Assembly (NCBI GenBank): GCA_009602725.1
Contig: WELB01000020.1
Coordinates: 443,068-480,465 of the forward strand
Origin: Spirogloea muscicola
Lineage: Eukaryota > Streptophyta > Zygnematophyceae > Spirogloeales > Spirogloeaceae
Reading direction: 5' to 3'
DNA: 37,398 nucleotides
Both the position numbers and the translations under genes were made by a program. Shown here in pieces: positions 5,311 to 35,364 of the stretch. The notes under the pieces are model-generated. The model did no database searches. It worked only from the letters and a program-made list of their open reading frames with translations, and was not told the origin of the DNA. Within the stretch, counting starts at the first letter, position 1, and each line of letters starts with the position of its first letter.

Positions 5311-5572
5311 CGGATGCGCCTGGCCGTCTCTTTGCAGCGGTCCCTAGCTTTTGCGGTCCACTTGCGCGCAGGCCGCGCTCTGGCGGCGGCCTCCGGCTTC
5401 CGTCAGGGCGACGTCTTTCCACCTGCTAGCTATTCAGATTTGCATCTACTGACGAGAGGTTACTGAGAGTTCGCTTACTGCTGTCTCAGTCCTTAGCACT
5501 CCGACTCCTTCAGACCTTGTCCATTCTTTTGGGCTGGCCTCTCCCAGCCACCAGTTATTCTGGCCGCGCTTG
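5311..5572 (+). mobile_element. 5'-truncated retroelement tail T1 with its 3' UTR
   Basis: An open frame 5311-5466 encodes the conserved end of the retroelement polyprotein (RMRLAVSLQRS, then HLRAGRALAAASG, then SDLHLLTRGY and TGA). The following 3' UTR carries a GGGCTGG hairpin (about 5531-5550). The 3' terminus is placed at 5572, because the 58-bp insertion at 35114-35171 is the reverse complement of exactly 5515-5572 with one mismatch. The copy lacks the reverse transcriptase and nuclease parts, so it cannot move by itself. Confidence 0.8.
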
Positions 5573-5627
5573 CTTTCCTGTGACCAAAGGTCCGCCTGAT
5601 CTGGCAGCTCTAGGTTCAGAGAAGTGC

Positions 5628-5850
5628 GCGCCCATAGAGAAGAGGGGCTGGCAAAGCCAGCCCAAAAAAGCATGGACAATGTCCAAAGCCAAAGAAACAG
5701 GAGCCGGAGAAAGGACTACACTACAAAACACTGCAGAACACAGAAACGATGCAGAGGGAAGCTCAGTACCCACGAGTGAGCAACAGGTCTGAGTAGCTCG
5801 CTGCAGGGAAAGAGGCACTCCGCCGGGACCCAGAGGCGGCGGCCAGAGCC
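5628..5850 (-). mobile_element. 5'-truncated retroelement tail T2, reverse orientation
   Basis: Read on the minus strand this matches the tail and 3' UTR of the copy at 28720-28920: the end of the coding tail (frame disturbed), a stop at about 5790, a UTR with TTTGGACATTGTCCAT, and a perfect hairpin GGGCTGGC-TTT-GCCAGCCC (5645-5663), ending CTCTTCTCTATGGGCG. It lies tail to tail with T1. Confidence 0.75.
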
Positions 5851-6049: not shown

Positions 6050-6174
6050 TTCCATTTTTCTGCCCTCCTGTGCACCGTCTATGTGTTTTGCAGTCTTTTG
6101 TAGTGTAGTCCTTTTTCCGGCTCCTCTTTCTGTGGCTTTGGACATTGTCCATTCTTTTTTGGGCTGGCTTTGCC
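6050..6174 (+). mobile_element. Resident retroelement 3' UTR, left part (interrupted)
   Basis: Sequence related to the UTR at 28800-28900 (TTTTGTAGTGTAGTCC, then GGCTTTGGACATTGTCCATTC) runs into the hairpin left arm GGGCTGGC (6161-6168) and TTTGCC (6169-6174). There it is broken by another insertion. The missing right half resumes at 6790. Confidence 0.8.
6169..6174 (+). repeat. Target-site duplication, left copy (TTTGCC)
   Basis: TTTGCC spans the hairpin loop and the first bases of the right arm. It is repeated at 6790-6795, on the other side of the inserted element. Confidence 0.75.
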
Positions 6175-6789
6175 TGGTGGCGTCCACGACGGGCGGTGGC
6201 GGGCGCATCATTGCCGATGTGGTCACCACTGATGTGGTCGACCGCTCCAACCCGGGGCTTTCTGCCTCGCGGGCTGGCCACGCTGCGGCAAAGGCCGCTC
6301 GCAGCAAGGCGGCCAAACACGCCGACCACCCGGCTGCCGACGAGTTCGTCCCCCTGGCTGTGGACGTGCATGGGGCTCTTGGATCCCACTGGCTCGACCT
6401 ATTGGCCAGGCTTGCACGGCGCGCTGTGTCCCGCAGGCGCGGTGAGCCGGCTGACTTCAACGCCGCTGGCTCGTGGGCTCAGGCGTATCGTATGCGCTTG
6501 TCCGTCTCCCTCCAGCGGTCCATGGCTCACGCCTTGCATCTGCGTGCTGGCCGTGCTCTCGCTGCGGCCTCCGGCTTTCGTCAGGGGGATAGTTTACCGG
6601 CAGCTAGTCTGTCGGATGTGAGGCTCCTCACTCGTAACTACTAAGTGGTCCATCCTCCCCCGTTCTGCCATAGCCTCTTCAGGCCCCGCAGTCGCTGCTT
6701 AGCTCGTAGTTTGGCCCCTTCGAACCTTGTCAATTCTTTTCGGGCTGGCTTCTCACAGCCCTTGCCCCCATTGGGAGAGCCACTTCTTC
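6175..6789 (+). mobile_element. Retroelement copy A, 5'-truncated, inserted in another copy
   Basis: A 615-bp insertion begins within the nuclease-like domain. Coding 6175-6644 reads GGGGRIIADVVTTD, VPLAVDVHGALGSHW, then RMRLSVSLQRS and LSDVRLLTRNY with TAA. The 3' UTR holds CTTGTCAATTC and a GGGCTGGC/CAGCCC hairpin and ends GAGCCACTTCTTC. There is no poly(A). The 5' end joins directly to the TTTGCC duplication with no filler. From 6329 it is collinear with copy B, without gaps over 462 bp including one base of each duplication. Confidence 0.88.
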
Positions 6790-6855
6790 TTTGCCAGCCC
6801 CTCTTCTCTCTGGGCCACTTCTCCTCTCTATGGGCGAGTACTTACTTCCTGTGCC
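6790..6855 (+). mobile_element. Resident retroelement 3' UTR, right part
   Basis: TTTGCC (6790-6795, second copy of the target duplication) is followed by AGCCCCTCTTCTC and, after a small duplication, CTCTATGGGCGAG. This is the expected continuation of the hairpin broken at 6174. Confidence 0.78.
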
Positions 6856-17940: not shown

Positions 17941-17949
17941 TCTATTATC
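17941..17949 (+). repeat. Target-site duplication, left copy (TCTATTATC)
   Basis: The 9-mer TCTATTATC recurs at 18434-18442, directly after the end of copy B. Confidence 0.8.
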
Positions 17950-18433
17950 CCCCCCGGGAAATAATTGAGAAGCCCGGCTGCCGATGAGTTCGTCCCCCTG
18001 GCTGTGGACGTGCACGGGGCTCTCGGATCCCACTGGCTCGACCTGTTGGCCAGGCTTGCACGGCGCGCTGTGTCCCGCAGGCGTGGTGAGCCGGCTGACT
18101 TCAACGCCGCTGGCTCGTGGGCTCAGGTGTATCGTATGCGCTTGTCCGTCTCCCTCCAGCGGTCCATGGCCCACGCCTTGCATCTGCGTGCTGGCCGTGC
18201 TCTCGCTGCGGCCTCCGGCTTTCGTCAGGGGGATAGTTTTCCGGCAGCTAGTCTGTCGGATGTGAGGCTCCTTACTCGTAACTACTGAGTGGTCCATCCT
18301 CCCCCCTTCTGCCATAGCCTCTTCAGGCCCCACAGTCGCTGCTTAGCTCGTAGTTTGGCCCCTTCGAAGCTTGTCAATTCTTTTCGGGCTGGCTTCTCAC
18401 AGCCCTTGCCCCCATTGGGAGAGCCACTTCTTC
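17950..18433 (+). mobile_element. Retroelement copy B, 5'-truncated, with target duplication
   Basis: A 23-nt filler (17950-17972) with no counterpart in copy A precedes retroelement sequence 17973-18433. Coding to 18288 reads DEFVPLAVDVHGALGSHW, then RMRLSVSLQRS and LSDVRLLTRNY with TGA. The UTR ends GAGCCACTTCTTC like copy A, then TCTATTATC. Against copy A I count 13 differences in 462 aligned bases and no gaps. Confidence 0.88.
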
Positions 18434-18442
18434 TCTATTATC
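18434..18442 (+). repeat. Target-site duplication, right copy (TCTATTATC)
   Basis: Matches 17941-17949 exactly. Confidence 0.8.
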
Positions 18443-19774: not shown

Positions 19775-22700
19775 ATGGCGCCCAGCCGCCTGCTGCTGGC
19801 GGCGCTCGCGCTCGCCGCCCTGCTCGCGCCCGCCTTCGCCGTCTCCACCACGCTCGTCATCAACGAGATCGATGTCGACCAGGTTACTCGCGCCCGCCGT
19901 CTGTGCTGTGTGCCCTCTGGCAACCCACAGGGCTTTGTGTCCCGTGATGCTATCGCCGCAGAGGCAGTCGCTGGCAGCTCCGCCTGCACTCAGCACTCAG
20001 CAGCAGCAGAAGCCCTTCAGTAGGGTGGAATTGCTGACTTGGCTGGCTGGCAAAACCTTCCGCTTTCGCAGCCAAGCACTGACTACACGGAGTTTATTGA
20101 GCTCGCAAACGCGGGCACAACTCCCATCCAGTTGAGCGCGTACACATTCAAGTTGATTGACAAGAGCGGCGTCGTGTACAACACTGTTCCACTCCCAAAC
20201 TTCGTACTGACTCCTGGCCAGTACTATGTCATATGCTCCAACAACGCCCAGCACGTCACGCCCTGCAACTTGCCCATCGCAGTAAGGCACACCCACCCAC
20301 CTGCTAAGATTGAAGCGAGCACATTGCAGTTCGAAAGTGAGACTGGTATATTGGCCTAACACAAAAGTGTATCCAGTGGCATTGTATGCAGTACAGTCTA
20401 GGCATGAGCTGCTTTCACAACCGATGCTTTTGCTTTGTTGCATGGCCAGTTGTGCTTGCAATTGGCATTGACAGCTGTGCATCAGCAGCTCCGTCACCAG
20501 CCATGACCTCAGTATGCAGGCTGAGACCTCGCAAGGCAAAGTTTGTGACTGCAGATAATGACATCGTGGCTCTGTTGATGCAGTCTGATGGGAATGCGGG
20601 GGGAACTGATCTAATCCGCAACAGCGGAGGTGGTGGTGCTGGCATCTACCTGGTATGGTGCGCAGACATTTTGACCATCCTTGCCCGCCAATGGGAGCAC
20701 TGACTTGAGGGCTGCAACATCATGATGTTCTTCTGGTCTGGTTGTGGGGATTGCAACAGTGGGTGCTAAGTCTGGCTGCTGGATGTGCAGGGCTCTGTGG
20801 TCGTAGATTCCATGTCCTACGGGGGTGCCACAATCTCTGGCGTAACTGAGGGCACCCCTACCGGCTCTGACAGCTCCACCTTGGTTGTCAGTTTCCAGCG
20901 CTGCCAAGGTAGCTGGCCTTCTGGATTAGCTCAGGAGGAGTCCTTCAAATCAGAAGTATTTGTAAATATTGCTGAAGTCAGGACATAGCATTACAGGTCT
21001 ATTGATACAGAAGAAATCATGCTCTTCCACGCTGGATAAAAGTTTGAAATGTGTGTTCCCCAAAAAGGTCTTCCACTTCTCTTGGGAGCAAAGGACACTA
21101 ACGACTACATGCTGTATGTAAAATTGTTTGTGTCAACTTCCGCGGCAGATGCAAAGGACACTGACAACAACAGTGCTGACTTCAAACTCTACGCGCCGAC
21201 TCCTGGGTCTGCGAATCTTTGCGGAGCTTCACCCTCACCTGTCACCAGCCCGCCTCCCCCGATTGCCGCCAGCCCGCCTACCCCAGTTGCCGCCAGCCCG
21301 CCTCCACCTCCGCCCCTGGTCGCCAGCCCGCCTCCGCCCCCGGTCGCCAGCCCGCCACCCCCGCCTGCTGTTGTCCTGACCAGCATTCATGACATCCAAG
21401 GCCAGAACCACACCTCCCCATACACAGGCAAAAGTGTGACAACCCAGGGCATCGTCACAGTCACCCTTTCCACAGGCTTCTACCTCCAGAACCCTGAAAG
21501 CCAGTATGACAATCTGGATGGCACATCGGAAGCAGTATTTGTGTTCACCTCAAACAAAGTTAGGTATGCACCCTCCGTGGGGGACAGGGTCCAAGTAAAT
21601 GGCAAGATTCAGGAGTACTTCCCAGGCTCTGGCGGCTTGTCGGTCACTGAGTTGGCTACGGGCACAACCGCCACATCTGGCTCCGTTACAACACTTTCCA
21701 CAGGGAACACACTGTGAGAAGCTGATACACTCCTCACCAGCATGAGATTGCCCATGTTTTTGAGAAAAGCTAATGTAGATTGTCCAACACAGGCTACTGG
21801 CTCACAAGAACATGTTTTTTCGGTTGCTTGCAGGCCTTCTCCAATCATATTGGGAGACGGAGGCCGGACGATCCCCACTCAGAACATCAGTGGTCCAGGA
21901 GGCTTCTCCGTATATGACCCTGTCAACCGTGGGATTGACTTCTATGAGAGCCTGGAGGCCATGCTCGTGCAGATTAACAATGCGTGAGTGCTTAAAATTG
22001 CCTGCTGCATTTATTGCTCACTTCTGCTATGTGACAAGTTGTTTCGATACTCCTACTATAAGGTATCTTGTGGCGCATGTTGTCTTTGAGATTCTGAAGC
22101 AGAAGTGTAGCGTGGGATGGGAGTGCGACTTATTGCTGTGCTTTTCCACGGTTGCAGAGTTGTCTCTGGCCCGGCAAACAAGTTTGGTGAATTGCCAGTG
22201 CTGGCTGACAATGGCTCAAATGTGAGCCCTGGTGTTCGTACGCCTCGTGGTGGCATTGTTCTGCAGCCAGACAACTACAACCCTGAGATCATCACTGTGA
22301 CGGATGCACGCTTCTATAACGCTGCTGCTGGGAAAGTGTTCCCTCCCTTTAATGTTGGTGACAACTTTGGGGGTCCCATTATTGCCTATGTTGACTACGA
22401 CTTCGGACAGTACCAGTGAGTGCTTATATCGAAGCCTAGACCCTGAATTCACATCCTTTGCCCTTGAGGATGCTTTTGATCTCAACCCTATGACTACTTG
22501 TTCTAACTGATCTGCTCACGCTGCAACCAGGTTTCCCATCACCAATGGAGTGCCAACCCGCATTGATAATAACCTGGCCAAGACGGTGGCAACTGCTCCA
22601 ACATCCACAGAATTCAGCATTGCCAGCTTCAACATGGAGAACTTTGGAGGCCAAGCTCCGCAGTCCAAATTTGATGCAGTTGCAAACATCGTGGTCAACA

Positions 22701-24550
22701 ACATGCTTTCTCCATATATCATCATCGCTGAGGAGATCCAGCAGAGCCAAGCAGCTCCTAACGCAAATGATATTCCCAATCCCGCCGGCGTGGTGGATTG
22801 TAACGTCACCATGGCACGCCTGATTGCTGCCATCGCAGCCGCAGGTGGACCCATTTATGATTATCGCGAGATTGACCCTCAGAACGGCACAGACGGTGGG
22901 CAGCCAGGTGGCAACATCCGGCAAGTTTTCATGTTCCGCGCGGATCAGGTTACTTTTGTTGACAGGCCATACAATGGCTCCTCCAGCCCCACGTATGATG
23001 CTGTTTCGGTTGTCACATCTCCTTCAGGCGAAGTCCAGCTCTCTTGGAGCCCTGGCAGGATTGACCCTGGCAACTCTGCCTGGGTTTCATCTAGGAAACC
23101 TCTGGTGGGTGAGTTCCTCATCGACGGCGAGAAGATATTTGTGTGCGGGAATCACCTCAACAGCAAGGGCGGCGACGACTACCTCTTTGGCATTGACCAG
23201 CCGACCCCAGTCCTCAGCTCCGAGGTGCAGCGCAACAAGCAGGCCACCGTTATCACGAACTTCCTCTCAACGCTGGTGGCGGCAGATCCAAATGCCAACG
23301 TCATCCTGGGTGGTGATCTCAACGACTTTGCCTGGTCCAACCCGCTCCAGATACTCCAGTCCCCCATCGCACCGAACTGGCGTCTGACGACGCTGGCAGA
23401 TTATCTCCTCCCTGTCAACCAGCGTTATTCATATGTCTATGAGGGCAACAGCCAGGAGCTGGATCATCTCTTGGTGTCGACACCTCTGCTCAGCCGCGTC
23501 ACTGGCATTGAGCCCATTCATGTGGACTCCGAATTTGCGATATCGGATCCTACCGTCGTCTCGGACCATGACCCCACAGTCGCCAGCATTACAAAGAGAG
23601 GTACACTCTTTTCCTGGCAGTCAGGCTGTGTTCACCATTTCTCTGAACTCTGGATTCTACCTGCTGCAATTGTGCTGCTGTTTGCGCTTACAATGTAGTG
23701 TCCGCCTGCTGACAAGCTGCATCTCTGCTATTATCTGCAGCGCGCTCCCCTCCTCCCCCCCACTCGCCGCCACCGCCGCCGCCTCTCTCACCACCGCCGC
23801 CGCCGCCTCTCTCACCGCCGCCCCCGCCGCCATCTCCCTCACCTCCGCCTCCCTCTCCCCCTCCCCCGCCTCCTCCCTCCCCACCTCCTCCCTCCCCTCC
23901 TCCCCCGCCTCCTCCCTCCNTGCAACGAGCTCAGGCGTATGCTCTGCATCAGAAAGCTGGTCGAGCCTTAGCTGCTGGCACAAGAGCTAGTCAATTGCCG
24001 TCCGGTATTCGAGCGTCAGCTAGCGACCTCTATGTGCTGACTCGTGGTTACTGAGCGGGTCAGCTTAGCAGCAGGTGACGTACATTTGTCCAATGTGCTT
24101 GCCTTCGTACTTGGCCACACATGGCCTCCCCATCTCTTAATATACACGCATTTCCTCCGCCCGCCTCCCCCTCCTCGCCCGCCGCCGCCGCCTCCCCGCC
24201 CCCCTTCTCCGCCGCCCAACTTCCGATGCGGCAGTGGATCTTGCCCTGCCTTCTCCACCTGCAGCGCCATGTCACCCACTGACTTCCAGTGCACTTGCAA
24301 CACTGGCTACATCCCAGTCGGCGGCACGGCCATGCAACCCAAATCCTGCCAGCCAGCGCCCCCGCCTCCACCAAGCCCCCCTCCTCCACCACCGCCCAAC
24401 TTCAAATGCGGCAGAGGATCTTGCCCTGCCTTCTCCACCTGCAGTGCCACGTCAAGAACTGACTTCCAGTGCACTTGCAACACCGGCTACACCGCAGTCG
24501 GCGGCACGGCAATGCAACCCGACTCTTGCCAGCCAACAAGTGAGGCCTGA
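19775..24550 (+). CDS. Secreted ExeM/NucH-like nuclease with SPPPP and EGF-like modules
   Basis: Exon 1 (19775-19882) encodes a signal peptide (MAPSRLLLAALALAALLAP) and the start of a lamin-tail domain (LVINEIDVDQ), continued in 20072-20281 (TDYTEFIELANAG), ~20542-20652 and ~20791-20907. Then come ~21147-21715 (APTPGSANLCG, a Pro-rich linker, and an OB-fold-like segment starting IQGQNHTSPYTGKSVTTQG), 21833-~21985, 22158-22418 and 22532-23600. The last holds a complete endonuclease/exonuclease/phosphatase domain: FNMENF, AEEIQ, GNHLNSKGGDD, GGDLNDF, ELDHLL and SDHDPTVA. From 23741 the next exon joins in phase into an SPPPP tract up to N 23920. Downstream (about 24150-24550) further Pro-rich spacers and two six-Cys EGF-like repeats end at TGA 24548-24550. 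The enzyme probably degrades DNA/RNA outside the cell or in the wall. That the EGF part belongs to this gene is inferred from matching Pro-rich style and position. Confidence 0.8.
21235..21370 (+). repeat. Pro-rich linker repeats (ASPPPP type)
   Basis: Repeated AASPP, VASPPPPP and similar units within the nuclease gene separate the lamin-tail domain from the OB-fold. They resemble hydroxyproline-rich wall-protein linkers of green algae. Confidence 0.8.
23741..23919 (+). repeat. Low-complexity SPPPP-coding tract
   Basis: CCG/CCT/TCC-rich DNA reads in the frame spliced from 23600 as SPPPP-type repeats with HS and LS interruptions. It ends at the unresolved base 23920. Length in the true genome is uncertain because such tracts collapse in assembly. 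Confidence 0.75.
23920..23920. other. Unresolved base (N)
   Basis: The only N of the window. It stands exactly between the SPPPP tract and a retroelement tail, so it may mark an assembly join. Confidence 0.9.
23921..24054 (+). mobile_element. Divergent retroelement tail T5 inside the nuclease gene
   Basis: Reads LQRAQAYALHQKAGRALAAG and then SASDLYVLTRGY with TGA at 24052-24054. It is closest to the tail at about 34700-34847 (QRAGRALAQANG). It separates the SPPPP tract from the EGF-coding part, so it is either an insertion in an intron or a misassembly. Confidence 0.72.
24222..24528 (+). repeat. Two EGF-like coding repeats
   Basis: The units CGSGSCPAFSTCSAM...C-T-C...C and CGRGSCPAFSTCSAT...C-T-C...C each have six cysteines in EGF spacing and share most residues (DFQCTCNTGY, VGGTAMQP). 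They are separated by PPPPSPPPPPPP. They probably arose by a recent internal duplication and may bind matrix or wall partners. Confidence 0.82.
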
Positions 24551-28663: not shown

Positions 28664-28945
28664 GTCTCGTTCCAACGCTCCCTTGCCTATGCCGCTGCGA
28701 GCAGGCCGTGCTATGGCTGCTGCCTCTGGGTCTCGGCGGAGTGCCTCTTTCCCTGCAGCGAGCTACTCTGACTTGATGTTGCTCACTCGCGGGTACTGAG
28801 CTATTCTCTGCATCGTCTCGTTTTTGTGGTGTAAGTCCTTTTTCGGCACCTCTTTCTTTGGCTTTGGACATTGTCCATTCTTCTTGGGCTGGCTTTGCCA
28901 GCCCCTCTTCTCTATGGGCGAGCACTTTCTTTCTTTCTTTCAAGG
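28664..28945 (+). mobile_element. End of T6: coding tail and 3' UTR with perfect hairpin
   Basis: Coding resumes as VSFQRSLAYA, has a small deletion, then continues RAGRAMAAASGSRRSASFPA and SDLMLLTRGY with TGA at 28797-28799. The UTR carries GGCTTTGGACATTGTCCATTC and a perfect hairpin, left arm 28886-28893, TTT, right arm 28897-28904. It ends CTCTATGGGCGAGC with a short (CTTT)n run. Confidence 0.78.
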
Positions 28946-29398: not shown

Positions 29399-29469
29399 TT
29401 AAGTGAATGGCTGTGAGAGAAGAGAAGTCAGCTCACTCGTGAGGGCTGTAGAAAGAGGAACAGCGCTTC

Positions 29470-29690
29470 CAAATTGACTGGTGGCTGTGATAGGCCAGCC
29501 CAAAAGAATGTACAAGGTCGGGAGGGGCCGGATGGCGGAAAGACAGCCCGAAGTGGCAAGGTCCGACGGGGTCAGAAAGCGCCGGAAAGCGCTGTGAGAA
29601 GAGGAGAAATCAGAAGAAAGTGCGCGTTCATTGAGAAGAGGGGCTGGCAAAGGCCAGCCCGAAAAGAATGGACAAAATGCAAAGATCCAA
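29470..29690 (-). repeat. Two reverse retroelement 3'-end copies
   Basis: About 29475-29520 (GGTGGCTGTGATAGGCCAGCCC, then AAGAATGTACAAGG) is a type II end. About 29630-29675 (GAGAAGAGGGGCTGGCAAAG, then GCCAGCCCGAAAAGAATGG) is a type I end with a perfect stem. No coding tails are attached. Confidence 0.65.
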
Positions 29691-33556: not shown

Positions 33557-33809
33557 CACTCCTATTGTATCAATTGCATCCTACATTGGCCAGTCGTAAA
33601 CTCGGCCCTTTAAGTAGCAATAACTTCCTCAAAAGAGCTGAAAGAGCGTACGTTGTTGATGTGTGATGGCTTCACTTACCCTGCTCAAGGCTAGGGCCTG
33701 CTATTTGTAATTGTCCGTGTTAGATTGGGTGACAGTCGACTTCGACAGATTAAATTCAAAGACGATCACACGTTTAAAGTACTGGCACCAGCAATAGCTG
33801 GCGTGGCAA

Positions 33810-34847
33810 ATGGGACCCTGCCCTTTCAAACTTCCCCTCTCTGACGTTCGCAGAAACCTTCTTCGCTCCTTCCCATCACTTGCGGCAGATCAGGTCGACT
33901 TTGCAGCGTGGGCAAGATGCTCTGACCTGAAGGCTCAAGCTCGCTTCTCACGCGCAGCCAATGAGCGAGCCATGAGCCACCTCAAAGCTTTGCTCAAGGA
34001 GGATGGACGTGGGCTCTCTCGTCTCCACTCCATCAGCTCTCCGGGGGCGTCGGAGTGGCTCAACGCTTTGCCGATTTATGAATCCCTCCGGCTCTCCGAC
34101 AACCTCTTCCGGACGGCTGTCCACCACCATCTCGGATTCCTCCACTTTGTTTGGCTGGCATTAGACAGTGTGAATGTGGCCATCGTTCGGAGGATGAGAT
34201 ATCTTTGGCAGCCCACATGCTTCGATGTTTTGAGGGAAGTGACGTAATGCCTCCCACAATCTTCTCAGAGACGCTATGTATGGCTTGGTGCGCGAGGCAG
34301 ATTATCATGCGGCCATGGAGGTGCCGGGCATCATGCCGGTGCTCCAGAAGCGTGGCAGGCCTTACGTCAGGCGTCTGGATGTGGTGGCCACCCCCCGGAG
34401 TGGTGCGCCTCGTCTTCTCCTCAACGTCGTTCTCATCGACGCATTCCAAGCAGGGCACAGACACCGACTGTGCCAGGTTGGGCGACACATCATGCAGAGA
34501 GGAAGAAGGAGAGGCACTACAATGACCACCCCCGGGGCGACCACTTCTTCCCATGCGCCATGAACATCTTTGGCGGCTATTGAACGAAGTGGTCTTCCCT
34601 CCTCCATCGCCTGGCACTGCATGTCGATGCCCGCCGACGTAGTCGGGCGGGTAGCTTGGGGCATTCTAGCGTCCCGCAAGCCGCATGCTGTAGAATGAGA
34701 CTATCATTGAGTCTACAGCGCTCCCAGGCACTCGCGATACACCAGCGTGCTGGTCGTGCATTAGCGCAGGCTAATGGCTCCCGTGGTGGTGGGTTGGCGC
34801 CTCATTATAGCTTGTCAGATATGCATGTGCTCACTCGGGGATATTAG
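33810..34847 (+). pseudogene. Retroelement copy T8, divergent lineage, broken
   Basis: Homologous to T6 from its thumb/connection region on: LPLSDVRRNLLRSFPSLAAD, SEWLNALPIYESLRL, LFRTAVHHHLG, the zinc knuckle CECGHRSEDEISLAAHMLRC (about 34160-34222), VREADYHAAMEVPGIMPVLQ, VRRLDVVATP and LLLNVVLIDAF. Further reading needs at least three frame changes and passes a TGA, then gives CRMRLSLSLQRSQALAIHQR and LSDMHVLTRGY with stop at 34845-34847. It belongs to a different subfamily from T6, with less GC and lower identity. Inactive. Confidence 0.8.
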
Positions 34848-35103: not shown

Positions 35104-35113
35104 TCAACAGGGG
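35104..35113 (+). repeat. Target-site duplication of the micro-insertion, left
   Basis: TCAACAGGGG recurs exactly at 35172-35181. Confidence 0.85.
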
Positions 35114-35171
35114 CAAGCGCGGCCAGATTAACTGGTGGCTGGGAGAGGCCAGCCCAAAAGAATGGACAAGG
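35114..35171 (-). mobile_element. 58-bp micro-insertion: only the 3' end of a retroelement
   Basis: Its reverse complement equals 5515-5572, the end of tail T1, with a single mismatch (57 of 58). It starts CCTTGTCCATTC, includes the GGGCTGGCCTCTCCCAGCC hairpin and ends GGCCGCGCTTG. It is flanked by the 10-bp duplication TCAACAGGGG. It is an extremely 5'-truncated integration in reverse orientation. Confidence 0.88.
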
Positions 35172-35181
35172 TCAACAGGGG
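35172..35181 (+). repeat. Target-site duplication of the micro-insertion, right
   Basis: Identical to 35104-35113. Confidence 0.85.
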
Positions 35182-35364
35182 TTACTGTGTTTCGTAGCTA
35201 CTTGATTCCCTGTGTGCTTTAGCGCTTTCCCTGGCCACTTCGAACTTTCTGGGCTGGCCTCCCACGTCCACCGCCCTCTCCTGGAAGCGTCCTTCTCTCT
35301 TGCAGAGATTGGTAAGACTTAGTAAGCTAATTGCCAGGCGGACCAGAGATGGGCCTGTGAACAA

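Follow-up and report, generated by a model that had tools for sequence, protein, structure and literature searches.

The window, by which we mean the whole stretch of 37,398 nucleotides analysed here, contains a 615-bp copy of a non-LTR retrotransposon (LINE), truncated at its 5' end and lodged within the 3' hairpin of another LINE; we call this insert copy A (Table 1). Checked base by base, the junctions read, in order, the left hairpin arm GGGCTGGC, TTTGCC, the insert, TTTGCC again, and then AGCCCC. The duplication can also be read as seven bases, CTTTGCC, the last C of the insert being equal to the C that precedes the left TTTGCC. This arrangement had been proposed in a sequence-only reading of the stretch and is confirmed here: with the insert and one TTTGCC taken out, the rejoined host hairpin equals the intact one further downstream without any difference, and the wider flanks, joined in the same way, are identical to window 28790-28945 at 97 of 102 aligned bases (5 mismatches, 6 gap positions) and align at 125/136 with an antisense copy of the host family (window 5600-5760). 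Part of that antisense copy (5650-5757) forms a 108-bp inverted repeat with 6067-6174. Copy A is 99.35% identical across its 615 bases to another copy, L014. Among the matches listed (the first 100 of 472), the same TTTGCCAGCC junction is present at other copies (C12:467701, C20:125397), which makes a local misassembly at the window site unlikely.

A second copy of the same family lies elsewhere in the window. Its duplication, read by eye and not scored by our script, begins 24 bp downstream of another LINE hairpin, and 23 filler bases stand at its 5' junction. When four 3' ends were folded as RNA, that of the host type alone was clearly better than shuffled sequences. A further 3' end family, of the GGGCTGGCCTCTCCCAGCCACCAGTTA type, occurs at 5504-5573, 29462-29532 and 35113-35182; it has the hairpin and is repeatedly a host of insertions. 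Fragments of a more distant LINE of the restriction-like endonuclease (RLE) type, with C-terminal parts 45% and 49% identical to the host-type element L125 described below, occupy 33798-34844. Ordinary gene candidates recognised with Pfam lie at 581-1156, 22511-23698 and 24041-24550: a HAUS5-like ORF, an Exo_endo_phos ORF, and an EGF-repeat ORF with a proline-rich stretch.

Table 1. Features of the nested locus and of related copies, in window coordinates
Feature	Position	Strand	Basis or remark
Inserted LINE copy A, 5'-truncated, 3' UTR complete, terminus CCACTTCTTC	6175..6789	+	sequence; 99.35% to L014
Left target-site duplication TTTGCC, end of the interrupted left half	6169..6174	+	
Right target-site duplication TTTGCC	6790..6795	+	
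Host 3' hairpin, left arm GGGCTGGC	6161..6168	+	
Host 3' hairpin, right arm GCCAGCCC; overlaps right duplication	6793..6800	+	
Host LINE 3' UTR, left part, family H1 (3'-end type behind the L125 ORF)	6096..6174	+	repeat family D8, alignment, L125 end
Host LINE 3' end, right part up to alignment limit	6790..6820	+	alignment
Copy A C-terminal coding fragment, most of the predicted restriction-like endonuclease domain	6175..6644	+	fold taken from a homologue
Copy A's own 3' hairpin, GGGCTGGC-TTCTCA-CAGCCC	6742..6761	+	predicted stem no better than shuffles over 74 nt (z -0.33)
Intact H1-type hairpin, uninterrupted counterpart	28886..28904	+	z -2.39 over 81 nt
Antisense H1 copy, head-to-head with the host copy	5622..5757	-	repeats I1, I8, D10; alignment
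Second copy of copy A's family	17973..18433	+	duplication TCTATTATC at 17941-17949 and 18434-18442, by eye

The host 3' UTR is of the type that follows a 1433-aa ORF on contig C176 (element L125, family H1). The host had been taken for another copy of the insert's own family; sequence comparison points instead to sister families, the family of copy A (reference L014) and L125 being 70.7% and 75.8% identical in two stretches of coding DNA and aligning, past the coding region, solely over a 44-base stretch at the hairpin (81.8%). On these alignments, the 3' end that copy A has entered is that of a relative.

Copy A's family is known from its C-terminal part only, and the full-length protein studied is that of L125, of the sister family to which the host belongs. 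Its ORF matches RVT_1 (E 2.5e-13), the sole Pfam domain match up to E 0.5, with no APE-type hit. By eye, the translation has zinc-finger-like motifs at the N terminus and a CxC..HxxxC knuckle at the C terminus, without a Pfam match up to E 0.5. A model of the last 243 residues, built from 24 sequences including copy A's family (L010), reached moderate confidence (pLDDT 66, pTM 0.65); an earlier one from six sequences (pLDDT 36.6) was useless. In structural comparisons with this model, chains of R2 hold ranks 1 to 7 (Z 10.9 to 8.8 over 155-169 residues; best Foldseek E 4.2e-4), followed by spliceosome chains (6ahd_A, Z 6.7; 3zef_E, titled as a Prp8:Aar2 complex, Z 5.2); PMC5678591 deals with the resemblance between Prp8 and RLE LINEs. 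Sequence searches of the PDB gave no hit at E 1 for the full ORF, and one irrelevant hit (E 0.58) for the C-terminal profile. Because the modelled nuclease fold matches that of R2, the superfamily is placed among RLE (R2-like) LINEs, apart from Zepp and not as a relative of it.

To characterise the family, the assembly (153.1 Mb, 471 contigs) was searched with a 190-base query from the 3' end of the insert, which gave 49 matches among 40 scored of 2,054 first-look candidates. Thirty-four of the 49, the window copy included, are identical across all 190 query bases, and the family is therefore young. Exact copies of the terminal 17 bases number 2,069 in the assembly, a count of ends and not of insertions, since duplicated tails are counted more than once. 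From these we drew a sample of 101 copies (41 + 60), made up of 38 regions from the 190-base matches, the remaining exact ends on C1-C4, and both window copies; two copies on C5 were omitted. The sampled inserts are mostly 5'-truncated, to varying lengths, and seven in the second set (n=60) align to the reference over at most 32 bases. Their common 3' end is partly a product of how copies were picked. Copies end in CCACTTCT or CCACTTCTTC, which abut the flanking DNA directly, with no poly(A) 3' tail.

Inspection by eye added several observations. In seven loci (L009, L131, L132, L139, L140, L142, L145) about the last 37 bases are tandemly repeated at the 3' end and joined at a shared CTTCT word, a pattern suggesting that the reverse transcriptase slipped on its template or jumped at the pyrimidine tail. 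At L030 the element's own coding region lies reversed to the left of the insert, resembling the twin priming of L1, in an RLE-type element. Insertions are stacked at two loci: at L025 a single LINE 3' end carries two copies in adjacent parts, and at L146 a copy lies at the junction formed by an H1 copy that apparently occupies the loop of another family.

Target-site duplications of at least 5 bases, the lower limit set for scoring, were found in 44/101 copies, some of the short repeats possibly being chance; they measure 5-16 bases, and 23 in one copy. The remaining 57/101 have none that is clear under the scoring criteria: seven have N upstream (L003 first copy, L007, L013, L037, L060, L071, L086), and others have fillers or inversions. 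The target-primed integration proposed for copy A is supported by the varied 5' truncation and the duplications, together with the inverted 5' part at L030 and the fillers at some 5' junctions, both seen by eye. An alignment of the 44 sites at their 3' junctions yields a weak motif, (C/G)C|CTTYC, also written (C)C|CTTYC, with 70% C at position -1, 66% C and 25% T (91% C or T) at position 0, and 59% T at +1 and +2. In a leave-one-out test, 46% of the 35 non-loop sites ranked among the best-scoring 10% of their neighbourhood. The duplication begins with bases similar to the CTTCTTC tail of the element, which is what pairing between tail and primer would predict. Motif-like words are also carried by LINE 3' ends, both in the loop (GGCC|CTTTC, GGCC|TCTC, GG|CTTTGCC) and in the tail (GAGCC|CTTTC).

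Are insertions then enriched in family 3' ends over random positions, as the self-targeting suggested for copy A would have it? The hairpin pattern GGGCTGGC-N3-9-CAGCC has 28,005 exact matches in the assembly, symmetric hairpins being scored on both strands, against 14 for the reversed pattern, and hits by chance are therefore not rare. CAGCC, the right arm of the hairpin, starts within 25 bases of 472/2,069 ends (22.8%), against a background of 6.7-7.2% at positions in the window and 20 control loci and 259/2,069 (12.5%) at 90-115 bases from the ends (p 3.5e-18); among the first 100 of these 472 ends, a spacing of 4-5 bases is the commonest (31/100). The enrichment is thus present, part of it being tandem duplication of the element's own tail. 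In the sample, 26/101 copies have CAGCC at 0-25 bases, and 22/87 after removal of 14 own-like flanks. An intact hairpin in the same orientation (at most 2 mismatches) lies within 100 bp downstream of 23/101 copies, or 15/87 without own-like flanks (background 6.3%; p 3e-4 for 15/87), a preference of about three-fold; for antisense hairpins the figures are 10/101 and 6/87 (background 5.1%), the latter not significant. Control words (CCGAC, CCACG, GGCTG) and distance controls were run as well, and GGCTG in the first interval gave 1/41 and 9/60, near its background of 6.9%. Self-targeting thus stands as a statistical preference for LINE 3' ends and falls as site specificity: nearly all copies of a target-specific LINE would lie in one target sequence, and here CAGCC is found within 25 bases of 472/2,069 ends. 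The host family H1, taken as a second case of loop targeting, showed no excess in the fetched loci (4/52 against 13, 6 and 5 further out).

Could the excess be regional, with copies gathering in LINE-rich or gene-poor DNA and nesting as a result of density and selection? Copies are indeed clustered, 23 neighbour distances among 63 copies on C1-C4 being below 20 kb (mean 9.0, maximum 19 in 2,000 uniform draws), and CAGCC is still raised at 90-115 bases. However, the excess peaks at the junction, where the 22/87 without own-like flanks compare with 8, 8 and 12 of 87 in the three intervals that follow (p 0.0014), and it also appears within neighbourhoods, so that a purely regional effect is very improbable. 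The clustered copies are spread over C1-C4, and not confined to one place per contig; on C2, 23 of 26 ends fall between 1.53 and 2.07 Mb.

The loop itself deserves closer attention, as it had been pointed out as the insertion site of copy A. Same-strand loop sites make up 5/44 duplication sites at up to 2 mismatches (L005, L014, L053, L066, W1) and 9/44 at 3 mismatches, L026 and L091 being weak by eye. A motif derived from the non-loop sites predicts global loop shares of 1.1% and 2.7%, respectively, and, within neighbourhoods, 1.84 ± 1.24 sites against 5 observed and 3.54 ± 1.65 against 9. Loops are thus hit about 2.6 times above the motif prediction, and something beyond the motif may be acting. 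This residual excess is what one would expect if the element recognised the conserved LINE 3' end as such, its arms GGGCTGGC and CAGCC being read as DNA by the zinc fingers or the RLE, in a true targeting of kin that would make relatives safe harbours. The same-strand bias of downstream hairpins agrees with this reading, as does the share of junctions with TCTC, present at 229 ends, that continue with MCAGCC (65/229, where the weak motif predicts 5-8%). Yet the word GCCTCTC is followed by MCAGCC as often in the background as the 28% observed (8/28 in controls and window; 35/93 with LINE-rich fetched loci added), and GGCCTCTC in 8/14 background cases. Most sampled insertions, moreover, lie outside loops, and H1 lacks the excess; overall we consider this explanation unlikely.

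TCTCMCAGCC junctions were also tried as a clean count of loop insertions, a use that inspection by eye weakened. Twenty of the 65 were fetched: both arms surround the insert in 8/20 (L127, L128, L130, L135, L136, L138, L141, L142), a repeat of the element's own tail is found in about 8, to the right in L131, L132, L133, L139, L140, L142 and L145 and to the left in L143 (L142 belonging to both classes), and 5/20 are ambiguous (L129, L134, L137, L144, L146). These tail repeats also speak against kin-targeting as the source of the MCAGCC share. Another 24 TCTC junctions, 4 of them from the sample and 20 new, do not continue with MCAGCC; by eye, both arms are present in L147 and L156, and the right half only in L149, L154 and L162.

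A different cue would be structure, if the RLE, a relative of junction resolvases, preferred extruded hairpins or cruciforms and cut in the loop. R2 cleaves open 4-way junctions (PMC6895275), the loops of several different LINE hairpins have been entered (W1, L005, L014, L028, L029, L053, L066, L089), and stems of at least 6 occur at 4 of the 44 sites against 1.5 expected. That excess comes from the LINE hairpins, however: without the 9 LINE-hairpin sites, stems of at least 6 number 1/35 against 1.3 expected, and stems of at least 5 number 2 against 3.6. Arms are also degenerate at several of the loops hit (L014, L029, L066). Hairpin structure is therefore unsupported as a cue, and we hold this alternative to be hardly credible; with no preference for hairpins outside LINEs, the data favour sequence as the cue over structure and leave a residual loop excess. 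The insertion point of copy A does lie in a loop, but the loop as such is not supported as the cue: the weak motif and the abundance of LINE ends explain a large part of the pattern.

The explanation we prefer, at roughly two chances in three, is recurrent, kin-biased insertion by an R2-like LINE of relaxed specificity that prefers words frequent in LINE 3' ends; the explanation builds on the anatomy of the locus, the duplications, the motif, the enrichment, and the RLE fold of the sister family. The bias towards LINE 3' ends most likely stems from a short preferred target word, and not from hairpin recognition. Copy A, truncated at its 5' end and very young, would have arisen by target-primed reverse transcription from an element with the R2-like plan of one ORF, zinc-finger-like motifs, reverse transcriptase and RLE. 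The RLE would nick the bottom strand at the weak motif, (C)C|CTTYC on the top strand, the order of strands being the one we infer; the freed purine-rich 3' end (GRAAG) would probably pair with the CUUCUUC tail of the element and prime cDNA synthesis, and a second-strand cut a few bases off would leave the duplication. With suitable words in the loop and tail of LINE 3' ends, new copies would pile up in or beside older LINE 3' ends, sequence and presumably not structure being read at the target.

RLE LINEs are mostly strict site specialists, R2 being an example. With R2, the non-specific R2-like elements (R2NS), HERO and other RLE non-LTR retrotransposons, the element shares a single ORF, a reverse transcriptase and a C-terminal RLE, whose model matches R2 structures; RLE members without strict target specificity are described in PMC4640811 and PMC5035012. 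Unlike the R2/R2NS/HERO group, it has a weak motif and no single target, is enriched in the 3' ends of its own superfamily, and ends in a CTTCTTC tail; R2 proper occupies one site in 28S rRNA genes, and the 101 sampled junctions lie in many different sequences. Tx1L of Xenopus, which inserts into Tx1D, is likewise a LINE that targets another mobile element, differing in its site specificity. Transposons are among the known LINE targets, and the Tx1 clade carries an APE-type endonuclease, a further difference (PMC4640811). The RandI/Dualen LINEs of Chlamydomonas and their SINEs are similar as algal LINEs with 3' repeats other than poly(A), such as (ATT)n (PMC3747384); Dualen carries an RLE (PMC4640811) and also encodes an APE, unlike the 1433-aa ORF, which has no APE-type hit.

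The comparison with Zepp made in the sequence-only reading fits the outcome: Zepp and ZeppL of green algae also leave 5'-truncated copies nested in existing copies, in arrays made mostly of 3' ends (PMC8226300). It does not extend to the family level, Zepp being an L1 element (PMC8226300) with (A)n as its 3' repeat (PMC3747384), whereas the element here has a restriction-like nuclease and a pyrimidine tail, CTTCTTC, and is clustered without being confined to one place per contig. In the open-licence literature searched, we found no RLE LINE described as nesting in the 3' hairpins of LINEs. A bolder proposal, which we regard as doubtful, is an RLE LINE lineage with evolved kin-targeting, in which the protein would read a 3'-end sequence common to the LINE superfamily and relatives' ends would form a renewable safe harbour, giving nested arrays and an RLE counterpart of Zepp.

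A very young family that has left about 2,000 exact 3' ends in one genome and combines relaxed specificity with a measurable bias towards its own kind would show how target specificity can shift from a gene to other mobile elements, and would supply many recent junctions at which target choice by an RLE can be measured. Repeat annotation, too, can be led astray by nested 3' ends. Should kin-targeting be no more than a by-product of a motif that matches the tail, then self-nesting can arise without dedicated targeting.
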